Shown: positions 55,045 to 63,694, counted from the stretch's first letter. The stretch: 64,000 nt of DNA from Leptotrichia sp. OH3620_COT-345 (GCF_003932895.1 NZ_RQYW01000005.1:62001-126000); one strand, 5' to 3'. Translations and numbers: made by a program. Notes: a model not told the origin generated them from the sequence alone.

Positions 55045-55707
55045 TTATATGTTCAAATTGTCCAGATTCTTAAAAAAGTCCATTTGTGCAGCTTCTACAT
55101 GTTTTTCACATAATTCTTTAATAGTTTCAATAGGAGTTTTATCATTTAAAATTAAATTTATAATATTTATATGTTCTTCTATGGCTTCTAATCTACGATT
55201 GTCAGGACCGTATAAAACTTTTCTTATACGTTCCAGATGATCATAAACCAGCGTCATCTGTTTTGAAAAAAAGAAGTTTCCACAATTTTCAGCAAAAAAA
55301 TATTTATATCCTCCATAAAGTTTATCAAATTCTGCTCCGCTTACATTATCTTTCCGTTCCATTTTTTCAAACTTTTTTCTAAAATCCAAAAGAGAAGATT
55401 TAAGTTCAGTCCTATCCAGAAATAAAATTGTCAGTTCCACTAAAAGAGGTTCGATTCTTGAACGAACTTGAAAAACATCTTTTATAAGTTTTAAATCTAT
55501 TTCGGTTACAGATACTGATTTTCTAGGATTAATAATAACAAAATTTTCATTTTCCAGTTGAGAAAGAGCTTCCTTTACGGGAGTTTTACTTATGGAAAGC
55601 TCTTCAGCTATTTTTCTTTCATGTATAATTTCCCTTTCTTTATATTCGTTGTTCATTATTTTACTTTTTATATATTCGTATGCTAATGTATCCAATTTTT
55701 TTTTCAT
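55045..55707 (-). CDS. GntR family regulator (FadR/FCD type)
   Basis: A 220-residue regulator. The N-terminal winged helix-turn-helix shows IIHERKIAEELSISKTPVKEALSQLENENFV (about 23-53); the C-terminal all-helical FCD ligand domain (about 75-210) binds small carboxylic acids in relatives, often with a metal. ATG 55707 is used because the promoter's expected start point near 55760 excludes the longer frame from 55776; AAGAG is 8 bases upstream. It is divergent from the FdrA-YlbE operon and very probably controls it in response to an operon metabolite. Confidence 0.88.
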   Translation of the reverse strand: MKKKLDTLAYEYIKSKIMNNEYKEREIIHERKIAEELSISKTPVKEALSQLENENFVIINPRKSVSVTEIDLKLIKDVFQVRSRIEPLLVELTILFLDRTELKSSLLDFRKKFEKMERKDNVSGAEFDKLYGGYKYFFAENCGNFFFSKQMTLVYDHLERIRKVLYGPDNRRLEAIEEHINIINLILNDKTPIETIKELCEKHVEAAQMDFFKNLDNLNI

Positions 55708-55766
55708 ATTTTGTACTCTTATAATGAGCTTCTCCTCTCCATATCCATATTTTTTTGAACAGTTAT

Positions 55767-55795
55767 AAGTTATCACAGCTTTATTATAATGTCAA
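55767..55795 (-). promoter_or_regulatory. Promoter of the gntR gene
   Basis: On the minus strand: TTGACA (55795-55790), 17 bases, TAACTT (55772-55767) preceded by TG-A. A perfect -35 and an extended -10. Confidence 0.65.
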
Positions 55796-55868
55796 CATTT
55801 TTAAAGAAAAAAAATAAAATAAAAAAATAAAATTGAAAATAGCTTTAAATATTGAGTTTTTATTAATC

Positions 55869-55878
55869 TGAAATATCA
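55869..55878. promoter_or_regulatory. Second GntR-type half-matching operator
   Basis: TGAAATATCA differs by one base from the perfect palindrome at 55925-55934, 56 bases away, and lies between the two divergent promoters. Confidence 0.4.
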
Positions 55879-55915
55879 CATATAACAAAAAATAAAAATA
55901 TTTTTAATAATAATA

Positions 55916-55943
55916 TTGACTATTTGAAATTTCATACTATAAT
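55916..55943 (+). promoter_or_regulatory. Promoter of the FdrA-YlbE operon
   Basis: TTGACT (55916-55921), a 16-base spacer and a perfect TATAAT (55938-55943), 47 bases before the ATG. The spacer holds the palindrome TGAAATTTCA. Confidence 0.8.
55925..55934. promoter_or_regulatory. Palindromic operator between -35 and -10
   Basis: TGAAATTTCA is a perfect 10-base palindrome lying wholly inside the promoter spacer. A repressor bound here would block RNA polymerase; the divergent GntR protein is the natural candidate. Confidence 0.55.
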
Positions 55944-55989
55944 AATAATAGAAAATGAATTTAAAATTATAAAATAAAGGAGGAGTAAA

Positions 55990-58989
55990 ATGCTTTATAC
56001 AGTATTAAAGGAAAACAGTTATCAGGATTCAATAAATCTGATGTTGTTGACAAATCATATCAGTATAATGAAAGGGATAAACAAAGTACAGGTTATGATG
56101 GGGACCGATGCCAATAAAGATATTTTCAACACTGCGGGACTTCTTTCAGAAGAAGCCGCAAAAGCAAAACCGAGTGATATGGTGGTAGTAATCGATACAG
56201 ACAATGAGTCGGTTGTGAAAGAAGCTTTGGAATCAATTGATAGATTTTTATCCGATTTATCTGTAAAAAAAGAAACAGGGATTCAGAAATCAGTAAGAAA
56301 TTGGTCACAGGTAAAAGAAGTAATGCCTGATGCCAATATGGCATTGATTTCAGTGCCGGGAATTTATGCTGCTGTGGAAATAGAGAATGCAATTGATAAT
56401 GGGTTACATGCTTTTGTTTTCAGTGATAATGTTCCAAAAAGCGAAGAAGTGAGATTGAAAAAAAAGGCACATGAAAAAGGACTTCTGGTGATGGGACCTG
56501 ATTGCGGAACAGGGATTATAAGTAATGTGCCTCTTGCTTTCACAAATGTTGTTCGTCCGGGAAATATAGGAATAGTCGGAGCTTCAGGAACAGGAATACA
56601 GGAAATTTCTACAATTATTGAAAAACTTGGAGGAGGAGTTATTCATGCAATTGGTACGGGAGGACGTGACTTGTCAACAGAAGTAGGAGCCGTAACTATG
56701 AAAGATGCTTTAGTGGGACTTGCACATCATGATCCGACAGATGTAATAGCAGTTGTTTCCAAGCCTCCTGCAAAAGAAGTTAAAGATGATGTAATACAGT
56801 TGTTACATTCACTAAAAAAACCCGTAGTTGCCATCTTCTTGGGAGAAAAGCCTGAATATCATGAAGGAAATGTTTATTTTGCTCATACATTGGAAGAATG
56901 TGCAAAAATTGCAACAGATCTTGCTAAAGGAGAAAAAGTCAAAGCAAATTATCAGAAGAAGCTTGATATAACTGCTCAGGACAATAGCATTTCAGGTAAA
57001 ACTGTAAAAGGATTATATTCAGGAGGAACTTTGGCATACGAGGCTGCAATGCTTGTAGGAGAAGCTTTGAAATTATCTTCGTCAGCAAAGGAAGAAGGAT
57101 ATATGCTGAAAACTGACGGATTTGAAATAATGGATTTAGGAGATGACATTTATACTCAGGGAAAACCTCATCCTATGATTGATCCGAGTGTGCGTATTGA
57201 AAAGCTTCGTGAATTTGGAGCAGATTCTAAAACAGGAATTATTTTGTTGGATGTAGTTTTAGGATACGGAGCACATGATGATATGGCAGGAGAACTAGCT
57301 CCGGTTATAAAAGAAATATTGAAAAAAGCTGAAGCTGAAAACAGAAAACTTTACGTAATCGGAACAGTGTGTGGAACAAAAGGAGATCCTCAAAATTACG
57401 AAAAATCTCAAAAAATTCTGGAAGAAGCAGGAATGCTTGTTAAAGAAAGTAATGCTGCTGCATTGAGATTGGCATTGAATTTAATGGGAACCGATATTGA
57501 TGAACCTGATAAAGAATTTAAAGAATATACAGGAAAAGTAAATGATTTACCTGGAATAAGTGGAGCAATAAGTGAGCTTCTTTCTACTAAACCTAGAGTT
57601 ATCAACATAGGAGTTGCAGGATTTGCTGAACCTGTAATACAGTATGGAGGAACTTGTACACAATTTGAATGGAAACCTATAGCAGGAGGAAACCAGAAAC
57701 TTATTAAAATTTTACAACAGCTAAAACATATGGAAAATCTTGAAAAAGAAAATGATATAGTAGTTGAAGCTATGAAAAATTCAGCTCCTTACTTAATAGA
57801 TGTCGTACCTGCACATACTGTAATACCGGAAATAAACGGAAAAGCACTTTTACATGCAGGATCGCCTATAAAGTATGAAGAAATGACAGGACCTATGCAA
57901 GGTTCATGCATCGGTGCCGCATTATTTGAAGGTTGGGCAAAAGATGAAGCTGAAGCACGAAAACTTTTAGAAACAGGCGGAGTGACATTTATCCCTTGTC
58001 ATCATGTGAAAGCTGTAGGACCTATGGGAGGGATAACTTCCGCAAATATGCCTGTACTTGTAGTTGAAAACAGACTTACAGGGAATCACTCTTACTGTAC
58101 ATTAAACGAAGGAATAGGAAAAGTCTTGCGTTTCGGTGCTTATTCCGAAGAAGTTGTAGACAGACTGCACTGGATGAAAGATGTATTAGGTCCTGTTTTA
58201 GGAAAAGCGGTAAGACAGGTTGAAGGCGGAGTAAACTTAAATGTAATCATTGCTAAAGCTATTACAATGGGTGATGAATTCCATCAACGTAATATTGCGG
58301 CAAGTTTACTGTTCCTGAAAGAAGTGACACCGCTTATAGTGACACTTGATATGGATGATAAAATGAAAAAAGATGTTATACAGTTTTTAGCAAATACAGA
58401 TCAGTTTTTTCTTAATATTATGATGGCGACAGGAAAAGCGGTTGTAGACGGAGCCCGTGTCAATAAAATGGGAACTATAGTTACAACTATGACACGTAAT
58501 GGAAAAGATTTCGGAATACGTGTGAGCGGTCTTGGAGATGAATGGTTTACTGCTCCTGTAAATACCCCTAAAGGACTTTTCTTTACAGGATTTACTCAAG
58601 ATGATGCAAATCCTGACATAGGAGACAGTGCAATTACTGAAACAGTAGGTGTAGGAGGAATGACAATGATAGCTGCTCCGGGAGTAACGAGATTTGTTGG
58701 AGCGGGAGGCTTCAAGGATGCTTTAAAAGTCAGTGATGAAATGTCTGAAATATGTACTACACATAACCCTAATTTTGCAATACCTACTTGGGATTTCAAA
58801 GGAGCACCTCTCGGAATAGATATAAGAAAAGTAGTTGAAACAGGAATTACTCCTATTATAAATACAGGAATAGCTCATAAAAATGCAGGAGTCGGACAAG
58901 TAGGAGCAGGAACTGTAAGAGCACCGTTAGCATGCTTTGAACAGGCATTAATAGCATATGCAAAACATATCGGTCTGGACATTGATTAA
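55990..58989 (+). CDS. FdrA-YlbE (DUF1116) fusion, probable oxamate carbamoyltransferase component
   Basis: A 999-residue protein joining two genes that are separate in E. coli (fdrA and ylbE, now allF and allG). Residues 1 to about 515 are FdrA: a succinyl-CoA-synthetase-like fold with GNIGIVGASGTGIQEIS (191-207), IGTGGRDLS (221-229), SKPPAKEV and GLYSGGTLAYEA (341-352). A short linker (about 505-530) leads into the DUF1116 half (about 533-999), with NIGVAGFAEP, PAHTVIPEINGKALLHAGSPIKYEEMTGPM (in pieces), PCHHVKAVGPMGG and GNHSYCTLNEGIGKVLRFG. In E. coli the FdrA, YlbE and YlbF products are reported together as the oxalurate/oxamate carbamoyltransferase of allantoin use. No stop or frameshift at the join. 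GGAGGAG precedes ATG 55990. Confidence 0.88.
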   Translation: MLYTVLKENSYQDSINLMLLTNHISIMKGINKVQVMMGTDANKDIFNTAGLLSEEAAKAKPSDMVVVIDTDNESVVKEALESIDRFLSDLSVKKETGIQKSVRNWSQVKEVMPDANMALISVPGIYAAVEIENAIDNGLHAFVFSDNVPKSEEVRLKKKAHEKGLLVMGPDCGTGIISNVPLAFTNVVRPGNIGIVGASGTGIQEISTIIEKLGGGVIHAIGTGGRDLSTEVGAVTMKDALVGLAHHDPTDVIAVVSKPPAKEVKDDVIQLLHSLKKPVVAIFLGEKPEYHEGNVYFAHTLEECAKIATDLAKGEKVKANYQKKLDITAQDNSISGKTVKGLYSGGTLAYEAAMLVGEALKLSSSAKEEGYMLKTDGFEIMDLGDDIYTQGKPHPMIDPSVRIEKLREFGADSKTGIILLDVVLGYGAHDDMAGELAPVIKEILKKAEAENRKLYVIGTVCGTKGDPQNYEKSQKILEEAGMLVKESNAAALRLALNLMGTDIDEPDKEFKEYTGKVNDLPGISGAISELLSTKPRVINIGVAGFAEPVIQYGGTCTQFEWKPIAGGNQKLIKILQQLKHMENLEKENDIVVEAMKNSAPYLIDVVPAHTVIPEINGKALLHAGSPIKYEEMTGPMQGSCIGAALFEGWAKDEAEARKLLETGGVTFIPCHHVKAVGPMGGITSANMPVLVVENRLTGNHSYCTLNEGIGKVLRFGAYSEEVVDRLHWMKDVLGPVLGKAVRQVEGGVNLNVIIAKAITMGDEFHQRNIAASLLFLKEVTPLIVTLDMDDKMKKDVIQFLANTDQFFLNIMMATGKAVVDGARVNKMGTIVTTMTRNGKDFGIRVSGLGDEWFTAPVNTPKGLFFTGFTQDDANPDIGDSAITETVGVGGMTMIAAPGVTRFVGAGGFKDALKVSDEMSEICTTHNPNFAIPTWDFKGAPLGIDIRKVVETGITPIINTGIAHKNAGVGQVGAGTVRAPLACFEQALIAYAKHIGLDID

Positions 58990-59780
58990 TGGCGGAATTA
59001 TATCGAAAATACAAAGATGATAAAGAAACAGGGAGTATCAGTAAGCTGGTACTCCTATATCTGAAAAAGTATAATACAGGATATATTCACAGTGTGTTTA
59101 ATCATTCTCTAAATATACGGTTTGGTGAAAATTTAATTCATATTTCAGGAGAAAACAGGGGATTAGTGAGTTTCGGGTGTTCCATATCGGAAAAGAAAGT
59201 AAAAGAACTTATATTAAATGTTGATATAGATAATATTGTAATGAAAAAAGGGGAAAGTTTGCTTTTTTATAAGCGGTCGGGAATTGAAAAATTAAATCTT
59301 TCAGGATTAAAGACAATAAATTTAGAAATCAAAAATATAAAAAAATCAGAAGGAATATTGAAAAAAATATTCGAATATCTGAAAAATATAGATTTTAATC
59401 AGAAAACAGGAATAAAAACAGATAAAGTTATAAAATATTTACAAAACGGAATTACGACGGAAAGCCAGAAATATTTAACAGGAAGAGGAAAAGGACTTAC
59501 TCCAAGTGGTGATGATATTTTACTCGGATATGGTTTAGTATCCTGTATATATGTTGAAAATGTCAAACTGATATATGGGGATTTGACTACAGATATAAGT
59601 AGACAGTATTTTGATGCATTTAACAGAGGCTATGTAAATCAAACTTTATTTGAATTATTTTCCGGAAATATTGAAAATTCAGTTTCAAATATTACTAAAA
59701 TAGGGCATACTTCAGGATATGACATATTATTCGGAATTTTTTTGGGAATAAAAAATCTTTTGGAAAAATGGAGGAAATAA
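58989..59780 (+). CDS. DUF2877 (YlbF/AllH-like) protein
   Basis: A 263-residue protein. The DUF2877 signature is GRGKGLTPSGDDILLGYGL (about 163-181); the C-terminal helix GHTSGYDILFGIFLGIK is also conserved. In E. coli the homologue YlbF works with FdrA and YlbE. ATG 58989 overlaps the stop of the fusion gene (TAATG), so the products are made in coupled amounts, as expected for subunits of one enzyme. The N-terminal 100 residues are less conserved. Confidence 0.85.
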   Translation: MAELYRKYKDDKETGSISKLVLLYLKKYNTGYIHSVFNHSLNIRFGENLIHISGENRGLVSFGCSISEKKVKELILNVDIDNIVMKKGESLLFYKRSGIEKLNLSGLKTINLEIKNIKKSEGILKKIFEYLKNIDFNQKTGIKTDKVIKYLQNGITTESQKYLTGRGKGLTPSGDDILLGYGLVSCIYVENVKLIYGDLTTDISRQYFDAFNRGYVNQTLFELFSGNIENSVSNITKIGHTSGYDILFGIFLGIKNLLEKWRK

Positions 59781-59781
59781 G

Positions 59782-61050
59782 ATGAGCAGTATGTTGGAAA
59801 AACGATATAAAGCGATGAACGTATCGGAGCGTTATTGGTGGAAAGTAGTGGCATTATGTTTTGTAGGATGGATTTTAATGTATGCTGACAGAACAATTTT
59901 AAATCCTGTTATGGGAAAAATAGCAGAGCAATTTAACTTAAGTAATACTCAGTTGGGAGCTCTTAACAGTGTATTTTTCCTGACTTATGCAATAATGCAG
60001 ATTCCTTTCGGGATAGCGGGAGATATTATAGGAAGAAGAATTGTAATTACACTTGGATTTATATTATTTGGAGTAGGTACATTTTTAAGCGGAATAGCAA
60101 GTGGAATAGGGATTTTAATGATTTATCGTGCTATAACGGGAATAGGTGAAGGAGCATATTATGGACCTCAGTATGCATTATCAGGAGAGGCGATACCGGC
60201 TAAAAGTTTGACTTTGGGAACAGCTATAATAAATAGCGGTATGGCATTTGGAACTTCGGGAGGATATCTTCTTTCAAGTTATTTAGTTCTTGAAAAGGGA
60301 AATCACTGGAGTTTACCATTTTTCATTATGTCGGTTCCTACTATTATAATAGGGATAATGTTTATGTTTTTAAAAGAAAGAGTTATAAAGCCAGAAGATG
60401 CTGACAAAAAGAAAGAAGAAGTCAATAAAGAGGAAACTGTAAAAGCTAAAAAATCCGGATTGTCAGTATTTAAGAATAAAAACTTGTTATGTGCATTCCT
60501 GTTACTTTTCTGTTCAATTTATGCAAATTTTGTAATACTTACATGGTTACCTAAGTTTTTACAGGCTGAAAGAGGATTTGAAGGGACAAGTGTCGGATTT
60601 ATAGCTTCATTGGTTCCATGGGCTTCAGTACCGGGAGCATTGATAATTTCAAGACTGTCAGATAAGCTTAAAAAGACAAAATTGTTTGTTTTCTCTTTAG
60701 TTCCTTTGGCATTAATTTCCACATTCGGAATGGCGTTTGTAACAGATAGGGGATTACTCATATTTATGCTTATATTATACGGATTAACGGGAAAATTGGC
60801 ATTGGATCCTATATTAGTAGCGTATGTAACGAAAAATTCTCCTAAAGAAGCCTTGGGAACAGCTTTAAGTGCATACAATTTTATAGGTATGTCGGCAGCG
60901 ATTACAGCACCTATCGTAACAGGATGGATAGCGGATAAGTTCGGTTCAATGCAAGCAGGATTTTATCTTGCAGCAGTTCTTTTACTTGTAGGTATGTTTA
61001 TATTCAGTGCAGCAAGTGAAAGTGGAAGTCAGGAAAGTGTTAAAGCATAG
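59782..61050 (+). CDS. MFS transporter (anion:cation symporter-like)
   Basis: A 422-residue carrier with twelve membrane helices and a cytosolic loop of charged residues in the middle (about 205-230). The MFS loop 2-3 motif reads GIAGDIIGRRIV, after YADRTILNPVMGKIAEQFNLS and LGALNSVFFLTYAIMQIPFG, the pattern of the ACS family that moves carboxylate anions. GGAGG precedes ATG 59782, 2 bases after the DUF2877 gene. Its place in the operon suggests import of a ureido acid or related organic anion; the substrate is inferred only. Confidence 0.85.
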   Translation: MSSMLEKRYKAMNVSERYWWKVVALCFVGWILMYADRTILNPVMGKIAEQFNLSNTQLGALNSVFFLTYAIMQIPFGIAGDIIGRRIVITLGFILFGVGTFLSGIASGIGILMIYRAITGIGEGAYYGPQYALSGEAIPAKSLTLGTAIINSGMAFGTSGGYLLSSYLVLEKGNHWSLPFFIMSVPTIIIGIMFMFLKERVIKPEDADKKKEEVNKEETVKAKKSGLSVFKNKNLLCAFLLLFCSIYANFVILTWLPKFLQAERGFEGTSVGFIASLVPWASVPGALIISRLSDKLKKTKLFVFSLVPLALISTFGMAFVTDRGLLIFMLILYGLTGKLALDPILVAYVTKNSPKEALGTALSAYNFIGMSAAITAPIVTGWIADKFGSMQAGFYLAAVLLLVGMFIFSAASESGSQESVKA

Positions 61051-61111
61051 AAAAAGTTAAAGAAGATTGAAAAGGGATAAAAAATAATATATTTTATATG
61101 AGGTGAGATAA

Positions 61112-62179
61112 ATGAGTGATGTAGTTATAGTATCGCCAAAGGAATTACACAATCTTATTCAAAATAAATTGGAAAAAGCGGGATTGAAATCGGAACATGC
61201 AGATGAAGTGGCAAGGCATTTGGTATTTGCCGACAGCTGCGGTATTCATTCACATGGGGCTGTCCGTGTAGATTATTATGCTGAAAGAATAGCAAAAAAA
61301 GGGGTTACTATAGAACCGGAAATGTATTTTGAAAAAACGGGACCGAGTACAGGGATTTTCCATGGAGATAATGCAATTGGACAATATGTTGCCAATGAGG
61401 CATTGAAATATGCCATAGAGATGGCAAAAGAAACGGGAGTATCTGTAGTTGGAGTTTCAAAATTAAGTCATAGTGGAACCATGGCTTACTATTTAGAAGA
61501 AATTACAGCAAATGACCTTATAGGTATTTCTATCTGTCAATCAGACCCTATGGTAGTACCTTTTGGCGGAAGAGAACCTTATTACGGAACAAATCCTATA
61601 GGATTTGGAGCACCGTCTGCCGGGAAATTACCTATTATATTTGATATGGCAACTTCCGTTCAGGCATGGGGGAAAATTCTGGATGCCCGTTCAAAAAATC
61701 TTGAAATTCCTGATACATGGGCAGTGGATAGAAGAGGTGTACCTACTACAAATCCTCAAGATGTGGGAGCGTTATTACCTATTTCAGGACCGAAAGGATA
61801 CGGTTTGATGATGATGGTAGATATTCTTTCAGGATTAATGTTAGGATTGCCTTTCGGAGGACATGTATCGTCAATGTATGATAAAATGTCTGAAGGAAGA
61901 GATTTAGGTCACACATTTATAATAATTGATCCTGCGAAATTTATGGACATAAATAAATTTAAAGAAAATATAGCAAAAACCCAGGAAGAACTTCACAATA
62001 TTCCTGCAGCTGAAGGATTTAAACAAGTTTATTATCCGGGAGAAACATCTCAACTTACATATGAAAAATATCAGAAAGAAGGAATTCCTGTTGAAAAGGG
62101 GATATATGAATATTTAATTAGCGACATAGTCCATTACGATAAATTCGGAGGACAGAGTGCTTTTGCAAGTAAAAAATAA
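61112..62179 (+). CDS. allD: Ureidoglycolate dehydrogenase (AllD-like)
   Basis: An NAD-dependent enzyme of the malate/L-lactate dehydrogenase type, 355 residues. It follows E. coli AllD closely along its length: ADSCGIHSHGAVRVDYYAERI, SICQSDPMVVPFGG, YYGTNPIGF, FDMATSVQAWGKILDARS, IPDTWAVDRRGVPTTNP, GPKGYGLMMMVDILSG and a final YLISD. Active-site residues His46, His48, Arg52 and His120 match AllD His42, His44, Arg48 and His116 by alignment from memory. AllD oxidises ureidoglycolate to oxalurate, the substrate of the FdrA-YlbE-YlbF enzyme, so the operon forms a two-step route. GAGGTGAG precedes ATG 61112. Confidence 0.88.
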   Translation: MSDVVIVSPKELHNLIQNKLEKAGLKSEHADEVARHLVFADSCGIHSHGAVRVDYYAERIAKKGVTIEPEMYFEKTGPSTGIFHGDNAIGQYVANEALKYAIEMAKETGVSVVGVSKLSHSGTMAYYLEEITANDLIGISICQSDPMVVPFGGREPYYGTNPIGFGAPSAGKLPIIFDMATSVQAWGKILDARSKNLEIPDTWAVDRRGVPTTNPQDVGALLPISGPKGYGLMMMVDILSGLMLGLPFGGHVSSMYDKMSEGRDLGHTFIIIDPAKFMDINKFKENIAKTQEELHNIPAAEGFKQVYYPGETSQLTYEKYQKEGIPVEKGIYEYLISDIVHYDKFGGQSAFASKK

Positions 62180-62221
62180 TTATAGTTTACTCCTAAAATA
62201 TAAGAAAAGGAGAGATAATAA

Positions 62222-63481
62222 ATGCCTGAAAATAAAAAAATGTTTCATTTGTCATTAACTAATCAGATATTGATAGCTACTTTTGGAGGTATTATATTCG
62301 GAGGTATTGTTGGAGAATGGTCCTCAAATTTAAAGGTGTTTGGAGATATATTTTTAAGACTTATCCAAATGTCTGTTATAATGTTAGTTATGTCTGCCGT
62401 TATAGTAGCAGTAGGTAGAGGAAACAGCAGTGATACTGGAAAAATGAGTATTCATACTTTTAAATGGATCATATTTTTTACTCTTATTTCGGCTTTTATG
62501 GGAGCGGGACTTGCATATCTCATTCAGCCCGGAACAGGAGTTGCACATATGACTGAAGTAGGTAAAAATGTAACAACTGCGGGTCCGATTCAGGACAGCT
62601 CACTAAAAGATACAATACTTGCTTTTTTTACGACAAATGTATTTTCAGCTATGGCAAGCAGTGCAATGGTACCATGTATAATATTTTCGCTGTTTTTTGG
62701 AACAGCAATGTCTCAATATATAAAAGATACAGGAAAAACTATTATTTTAGACTGGGTTACGGCTATTAATGAAATTATAGTTAATATAATAAAAAATGTA
62801 ATGAAAATATCACCTATAGGAATATTTTGTCTATTAGCGGATGTGACAGGAAGTAAAGGATTTACAGTAGTAATACCTATGATAAAATTTCTTGGGATAT
62901 TAATTATAGGAGGGATTCTCCAATTAATAATTTATGGTTTTATGACAGCTTTCATATGTAAAGTAAGTCCGTTTAAAATGCCTAAGAAATTTGCCAAAAT
63001 GTCTATTATAGCTCTTACAACTACATCAAGTGCCATAACCCTTCCTACAAAAATGGAAGATTCGGTGACAAAATTCGGCGTCAGCAGAAAAGTAGCCGAT
63101 TTTACAGGGCCGATAACAATGTCTATGAATTCATCAGGCTGGGCATTATGTAATGTCACTGCAATATTTTTCATGGCTCAATTTTCAGGAGTACATCTTA
63201 CAACTTATCAGATGGTAATGGCTGTAATACTTTCCTGTTTGATGTGTATGGGTAGTGTTGTTGTACCGGGGGGAGCAATTATAGTTTATACATTTTTAGC
63301 AACTTCTATGGGGCTACCTCTTGACAGTATAGCTGTTCTTATAGGAATAGACTGGTTCTCAGGAATGTTCAGAACGTTAAATAATGTTGATATAGATGTA
63401 TATGTCGCTATGCTTGTGGCAAATAAAATAAATGAATTTGACAGAGATGTGTATAATGATCTTAAAATTGTAGAATATTAA
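62222..63481 (+). CDS. Dicarboxylate/amino acid:cation symporter family (DAACS) carrier
   Basis: A 419-residue carrier of the GltP/DctA fold with about eight helices and two hairpin loops. Hairpin 1 reads TTTSSAITLPTKM; the C-terminal helix reads DWFSGMFRTLNNVDIDV. Compared with the aspartate transporter GltPh, Arg397, Thr398, Asn401 and Asp405 have counterparts, but Asp394, which holds the substrate amino group, is Gly, and the NMDGT motif is NSSGW. A substrate without an amino group is therefore likely. GGAGAG precedes ATG 62222. Last gene of the operon; an organic acid linked to the pathway is the probable cargo. Confidence 0.85.
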   Translation: MPENKKMFHLSLTNQILIATFGGIIFGGIVGEWSSNLKVFGDIFLRLIQMSVIMLVMSAVIVAVGRGNSSDTGKMSIHTFKWIIFFTLISAFMGAGLAYLIQPGTGVAHMTEVGKNVTTAGPIQDSSLKDTILAFFTTNVFSAMASSAMVPCIIFSLFFGTAMSQYIKDTGKTIILDWVTAINEIIVNIIKNVMKISPIGIFCLLADVTGSKGFTVVIPMIKFLGILIIGGILQLIIYGFMTAFICKVSPFKMPKKFAKMSIIALTTTSSAITLPTKMEDSVTKFGVSRKVADFTGPITMSMNSSGWALCNVTAIFFMAQFSGVHLTTYQMVMAVILSCLMCMGSVVVPGGAIIVYTFLATSMGLPLDSIAVLIGIDWFSGMFRTLNNVDIDVYVAMLVANKINEFDRDVYNDLKIVEY

Positions 63482-63651: not shown

Positions 63652-63694
63652 AAGAAAAAACCGCCTTCAGAATATTTTCGGGCGGTTTCTTTTT
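63652..63694. terminator. Bidirectional terminator between convergent genes
   Basis: AAAAACCGCC pairs with GGCGGTTTCTTTTT across a 15-base loop; A- and T-runs on both sides serve both directions. It separates the operon from the YciI-like gene. Confidence 0.85.

Follow-up and report, generated by a model that had tools for sequence, protein, structure and literature searches.

The window, a stretch of 64,000 nucleotides from Leptotrichia sp. OH3620_COT-345 (GCF_003932895.1, NZ_RQYW01000005.1:62001-126000), derives from a 2.52-Mb draft genome (referred to as G000) that comprises 247 contigs and is 99.6% complete. Located between positions 55045 and 63481 are six open reading frames. A regulator of the GntR/FCD type, encoded on the minus strand, diverges from five plus-strand genes (55990-63481) specifying, in order, an AllF-AllG fusion, AllH, an MFS carrier, AllD, and a DAACS carrier. 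The stated coordinates were reproduced for every reading frame, and the families were confirmed. The assignments of AllD, of an FdrA-YlbE fusion, and of a DUF2877 protein in the original prediction are supported by matches to TIGR03175, NF004760, PF06545, and PF11392. The features of the locus are as follows.

55045-55776, minus strand: GntR/FCD transcriptional regulator, divergent (Pfam GntR, 1.3e-12; FCD, 1.1e-07)
55868-55943, plus strand: putative promoter and twin operator (blocks identical across four species; promoter-like match)
55990-58989, plus strand: AllF-AllG fusion, predicted oxamate carbamoyltransferase subunits (NF004760, 693 bits; PF06545, 323 bits)
58989-59780, plus strand: AllH (DUF2877), predicted third oxamate carbamoyltransferase subunit (PF11392, 9.7e-15, 55.6 bits versus a cut-off of 25)
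59782-61050, plus strand: MFS carrier, candidate ureidoglycolate/oxalurate importer or oxamate exchanger (MFS_1, 1.3e-75)
61112-62179, plus strand: AllD, predicted ureidoglycolate dehydrogenase (TIGR03175, 582 bits versus a cut-off of 496.2)
62222-63481, plus strand: DAACS (SDF) carrier, atypical subfamily (PF00375, 1.1e-92)
63658-63694, unstranded: probable terminator, AAACCGCC / GGCGGTTT stem with a 15-nt loop (read directly off the sequence)

The distances between the five plus-strand genes are, in order, -1, +1, 61, and 42 bp. This spacing is typical of an operon, and the five-gene run is a real one. The stem at 63658-63694 is flanked by a T tract on one side and an A tract on the other, and probably marks the operon end; the terminator scan permits only shorter loops and therefore did not list it. 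A glutamate dehydrogenase just 3' of the window was considered as part of the system and dropped, the frame at a similar place in the congener G002 being unrelated.

In Escherichia coli, AllF, AllG, and AllH (formerly FdrA, YlbE, and YlbF) were assigned in 2024 as the oxamate carbamoyltransferase, which converts oxalurate and phosphate to oxamate and carbamoyl phosphate (PMC11326118). All three subunit types are encoded together in the operon, AllF and AllG as one chain with AllH adjoining. The chain is a single frame of 999 amino acids, with AllF delineated by residues 1-579 and AllG by residues 583-999, which display 38.5% and 63% identity, respectively, to their E. coli counterparts. The score against the FdrA model exceeds the cut-off (433 bits for NF004760), and both parts of the fusion resemble AllFG more than they do YahFG, paralogues that are uncharacterised: the AllG part scores 562 bits against E. 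coli AllG and 379 against YahG, and the AllF part 383 bits against AllF and 305 against YahF. Structures of relatives of AllF-AllG have been solved (3dmy and 3clq). The AlphaFold model of the fusion, with a mean pLDDT of 71, was set aside and no conclusion was drawn from it.

The AllH of the window is divergent, with about 30% identity to E. coli AllH over 126 amino acids. A profile comparison nevertheless aligns 230 of its columns, most of its length, with the AllH/YahE set at a probability of 99.7, and it retains the GxGLTPxGDD and GHxSGxD motifs, which belong to the positions that never vary among 19 AllH sequences. Its AlphaFold model is of higher confidence (pLDDT of 88.9), and a fold search with this model (58989-59780) against the PDB returned no match at E <= 0.001; this subunit of the oxamate carbamoyltransferase is one without a recognised fold. 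On the basis of homology to the proven E. coli enzyme, AllFG and AllH are predicted to form an oxamate carbamoyltransferase. A natural one-chain AllF-AllG should be useful for the study of this carbamoyltransferase, which does not resemble the classical enzymes. Note that the N-terminus of E. coli YahG (L100:7326-8744), when compared with window positions 57568-57740, carries the C-terminal segment of AllF, which shows that the border between F and G is movable.

The score of the window AllD lies above the curated equivalog cut-off of NCBIfam, and all 14 of its catalytic, substrate, and cofactor residues are conserved. Nine residues whose mutation harms the E. coli enzyme (PMC3527362), namely Ser 43, His 44, Arg 48, Tyr 52, His 116, Ser 140, Asp 141, Met 251, and Arg 259, are all identical in the window protein. 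Three of these, Asp 141, Met 251, and Arg 259, set it apart from the related HcxB and YiaK, in which they differ. In addition, the protein groups with the AllD of a Trichococcus allantoin cluster. The homology thus argues strongly that it is an NAD+-dependent ureidoglycolate dehydrogenase. Together, the AllD and AllFGH assignments support the two-step route of the original prediction, in which ureidoglycolate would be converted via oxalurate to oxamate and carbamoyl phosphate.

The original prediction further held that the other enzymes of the pathway are missing from the window. This was borne out and extends to the genome as a whole for AllE, AllC, and an AllB (allantoinase) above the cut-off; it does not hold for carbamate kinase, whose gene lies outside the window as part of an arginine deiminase operon. 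AllE and AllA had no match in the seven genomes searched, namely the window genome, the congeners G001 and G002 (the latter closed), G005 as a member of a second genus, and three genomes judged to be Sebaldella-like from their size and kinship. AllC had no match at E <= 0.001, and AllB none above its cut-off, in the window genome or in either congener. A full-length allantoinase-like match in G002 proved to be a dihydropyrimidinase. A full allantoin pathway elsewhere in the genome, named beforehand as the result that would speak against scavenging and represented here by AllB, AllC, and AllE in one genome for the anaerobic route, was found neither in the window genome nor in the closed congener.

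It could be argued that the pathway is complete after all, its upstream steps being carried out by unrecognised or recruited enzymes such as a dihydroorotase-type amidohydrolase or an M20 hydrolase, in which case no scavenging would be needed. A dihydroorotase-like amidohydrolase of the window genome does share 27% identity with AllB over its length, but it fits the dihydroorotase model (303 bits, over the cut-off) better than that for allantoinase (223 bits, under the cut-off of 357.85). The remaining amidohydrolases belong to the NagA and the nucleoside/ammeline deaminase-like families, apart from L013 (G000:C5:19878-20927), an amidohydrolase-like frame with an internal TAG that received no family assignment. 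M20 hydrolases are plentiful, but the proteins scanned, a set that leaves out the weak M20 match L021, fit the PepT, PepV-type, His-dipeptidase, DapE/ArgE, or aminoacylase-type families. Given also the lack of an AllE, AllA, or AllC match, and of any upstream-pathway gene linked to the operon in the four genomes that carry it, we regard a complete pathway as quite improbable.

The carbamate kinase gene of the window genome lies in an arcA-arcB-arcC-antiporter operon, and its product scores 401 bits versus a cut-off of 358. Carbamate kinase is likewise encoded in G001, G002, and G005, and thus in every tested genome with the operon; its absence from the locus was accordingly rejected as a special feature. 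Fermentative bacteria gain ATP from carbamoyl phosphate via carbamate kinase, and the ATP yield suggested in the original prediction is plausible given the gene elsewhere in the genome. A different emphasis is that biosynthesis, rather than ATP formation, is the main purpose for which the operon yields carbamoyl phosphate or nitrogen. The genome encodes both a dihydroorotase and an ornithine carbamoyltransferase, and the operon has no dedicated AllK, unlike 64 of the 76 AllFG loci compared, a descriptive sample drawn with the window's own protein and containing one duplicate pair and some short contigs. An arcC-equivalog carbamate kinase is, however, present in each genome, and a mainly biosynthetic role seems unlikely to us, although it is compatible with ATP formation and the two are not mutually exclusive. 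The oxamate amidohydrolase family is not represented in G000, G001, G002, or G005, and oxamate is therefore probably an end product.

The gene set of the operon recurs in G001, G002, and G005, that is, in four genomes of two genera, as the comparison of relatives suggested in the original prediction reveals. In G005 the DAACS carrier and AllD have swapped positions, and the DAACS carrier is of a different type (37% identical). AllG was observed in seven of 98 Fusobacteriota genomes, all seven belonging to the window's own family. In the 76-locus sample described above, AllC is nearby in 55 cases and AllE in 58; the Leptotrichiaceae operons with AllD have neither of these, nor carbamate kinase, close by. 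A fused AllF-AllG was rejected as a novelty, because it is common in Lachnospiraceae. In the AllG tree the fused proteins of Leptotrichiaceae and Lachnospiraceae do not group as a single clade (AU p 0.0015), and thus either the joining of the two genes or its reversal took place repeatedly.

Several known systems provide a frame of reference. Like the window, the E. coli allECD/allFGHK genes encode AllD and three oxamate carbamoyltransferase subunits and pass carbamoyl phosphate to a carbamate kinase. The window genome differs from E. coli in the upstream enzymes that went unmatched or, for AllB, fell below the cut-off, and the operon in its fused AllF-AllG, the lack of AllK, two carriers of other families, and a GntR/FCD protein in place of AllS/AllR. 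The allantoin clusters of Lachnospiraceae and Butyricicoccus share the AllF-AllG fusion, the fused proteins being of a lineage separate from that of the window by the same AU test, and some have a DAACS carrier 57-65% identical to that of the window; most, however, carry AllC and AllK, and usually AllB, AllE, and AllD. Stand-alone allFGHK genes without upstream purine genes have been described in comammox Nitrospira and ammonia-oxidising archaea, where scavenging was proposed; they include AllK and are often located beside biuret/triuret genes (PMC12625717). These cover the last steps of allantoin breakdown, as does the window operon, which adds AllD and the MFS and DAACS carriers and belongs to Fusobacteriota.

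The Sebaldella-like loci L093, L094, and L095 encode, in addition to a GntR protein, AllF, AllG, AllH, carbamate kinase, a 450-residue hydrophobic protein, and an amidohydrolase. In the one locus scanned, the hydrophobic protein had no Pfam match and the amidohydrolase was cytosine-deaminase-like. This operon and E. coli yahEFGHIJ contain the same subunit types as the window, but unfused, with an amidohydrolase and without AllD. At the Sebaldella-like loci the regulator is again of the GntR type and the promoter is laid out in a similar way, whereas the membrane protein is different. Such clusters lend some weight to the notion that the operon acts on oxalurate or on another ureido or 2-hydroxy acid, such as oxalurate originating from parabanate or a plant or host ureide, and that the role of AllD is secondary; two of the stand-alone AllFG(H)-carbamate kinase-MFS sets of Bacillaceae described below, for which no AllD was found nearby, point the same way. 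Against this stand the presence of AllD in all four operons, its full set of ureidoglycolate-contacting residues, and its grouping with the Trichococcus enzyme. On balance, this reading is considered unlikely.

The MFS carrier has relatives of 41-49% identity in Bacillaceae, where they belong to clusters for allantoin or oxamate carbamoyltransferase. Those of Bacillus chungangensis, Neobacillus, and Lentibacillus are encoded behind AllF-AllG-(AllH)-carbamate kinase and a sensor kinase paired with a response regulator. These three loci (L132, L135, and L080), each encoding the carbamoyltransferase subunits, carbamate kinase, sensor histidine kinase, response regulator, and window-related MFS protein, suggest an independent scavenging module with sensing from outside the cell; dCache domains are present in both of the sensor kinases examined (L132 and L135). 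At the Bacillus chungangensis and Neobacillus loci, the upstream stretch that was read, about 11 to 12 kb, contained no AllD that could be found. The recurrence of the MFS protein beside oxamate carbamoyltransferase genes ties it to that enzyme itself, and from this neighbourhood its cargo is likely oxalurate, ureidoglycolate, or oxamate.

The DAACS carrier reads NSSG where DctA and GltP read NLDG, its subfamily having NSSG or NSCG, and it falls below the curated cut-offs for both (162 bits versus 638 for the GltP model and 144 versus 513 for DctA). The original prediction had the two carriers replacing the missing enzymes. This part was not sustained, given that in gut Firmicutes the 57-65% identical DAACS relatives sit within complete allantoin clusters, AllC among their genes; the DAACS carrier is thus not specific to scavenging. 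For both carriers, substrates and direction of transport are inferred. The literature consulted described no transporter for ureidoglycolate or oxalurate, and the operon offers two concrete candidates.

The true start of the regulator is most likely Met 24 of the listed frame, at about 55707, where the frame of a congener begins. In G001, G002, and G005 an orthologue occupies the same divergent position, as one does, at 45%, in the g9 genomes. The best promoter-like match of the region, TTGACT/TATAAT at 55916-55943, agrees with the consensus at 11 of 12 positions, and its 16-bp spacer contains the palindrome TGAAATTTCA (55925-55934). A second site, TGAAATATCA, is positioned at 55869-55878. Across the four species two upstream blocks of 12 bp and 24 bp (CTGAAATATCAC and AATATTGACTATTTGAAATTTCAT) are identical, the second of which holds the palindrome, in an alignment where 119 of 256 columns overall are identical. 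The 24-bp block exceeds any run in 5000 column shuffles, the longest of which was 19. The two sites are separated by 56, 56, 56, and 55 bp in the four species. The 10-bp motif alone is unremarkable, with three matches in the window versus 1.58 expected, and the case for operators therefore rests on conservation. A similar promoter/operator layout occurs at L093 and L095. From the conserved geometry we infer repression through twin putative operators, and the natural reading is that the divergent GntR protein is the repressor: it would bind the twin TGAAAT(A/T)TCA sites until an acid of the pathway bound to the protein.

We consider it probable that the operon is a regulated catabolic unit that covers the final part of allantoin breakdown and draws its substrate from the surroundings. 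In the proposed scheme, (S)-ureidoglycolate and/or oxalurate would be imported by the MFS and/or the DAACS carrier. AllD would oxidize ureidoglycolate with NAD+ to oxalurate, which AllFG and AllH would cleave by phosphorolysis to oxamate and carbamoyl phosphate, both steps being assigned by homology. ArcC of the arginine deiminase operon, whose gene is present, could then form ATP, CO2, and NH3 from carbamoyl phosphate and ADP; alternatively, the carbamoyl phosphate could feed biosynthesis. Oxamate would leave by the other carrier or by exchange. The net reaction would be ureidoglycolate + NAD+ + ADP + Pi -> oxamate + NADH + ATP + CO2 + NH3. A more specific version, offered tentatively, is that the MFS protein exchanges a ureido acid for oxamate, comparable to the arginine/ornithine exchange of the arginine deiminase pathway. 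With AllD, the oxamate carbamoyltransferase, and the shared ArcC it might thereby form a self-contained fermentation of a purine-breakdown intermediate, the same pairing of carrier and enzyme occurring in Fusobacteriota and Bacillaceae and a dCache kinase perhaps detecting the outside substrate in the latter.

All of the enzymes are of known type, and the scavenging idea for stand-alone allFGH(K) genes has already been published for nitrifiers (PMC12625717). The present operon goes further in having AllD, two candidate carriers, and a defined promoter, and in belonging to another phylum, the trimmed and transporter-equipped arrangement being new for Fusobacteriota. The host-associated Leptotrichiaceae that carry it probably import an intermediate which other microbes release, and make ATP from it. 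If so, ureidoglycolate or oxalurate would be traded among the microbes of animal surfaces, and purine nitrogen and energy would change hands there. The literature search yielded nothing of direct relevance to cross-feeding with ureidoglycolate or to allantoin in Leptotrichia. Finally, a metagenome-assembled contig from a closely related Leptotrichiaceae bacterium encodes an AllFG that is 97% identical to that of the window.
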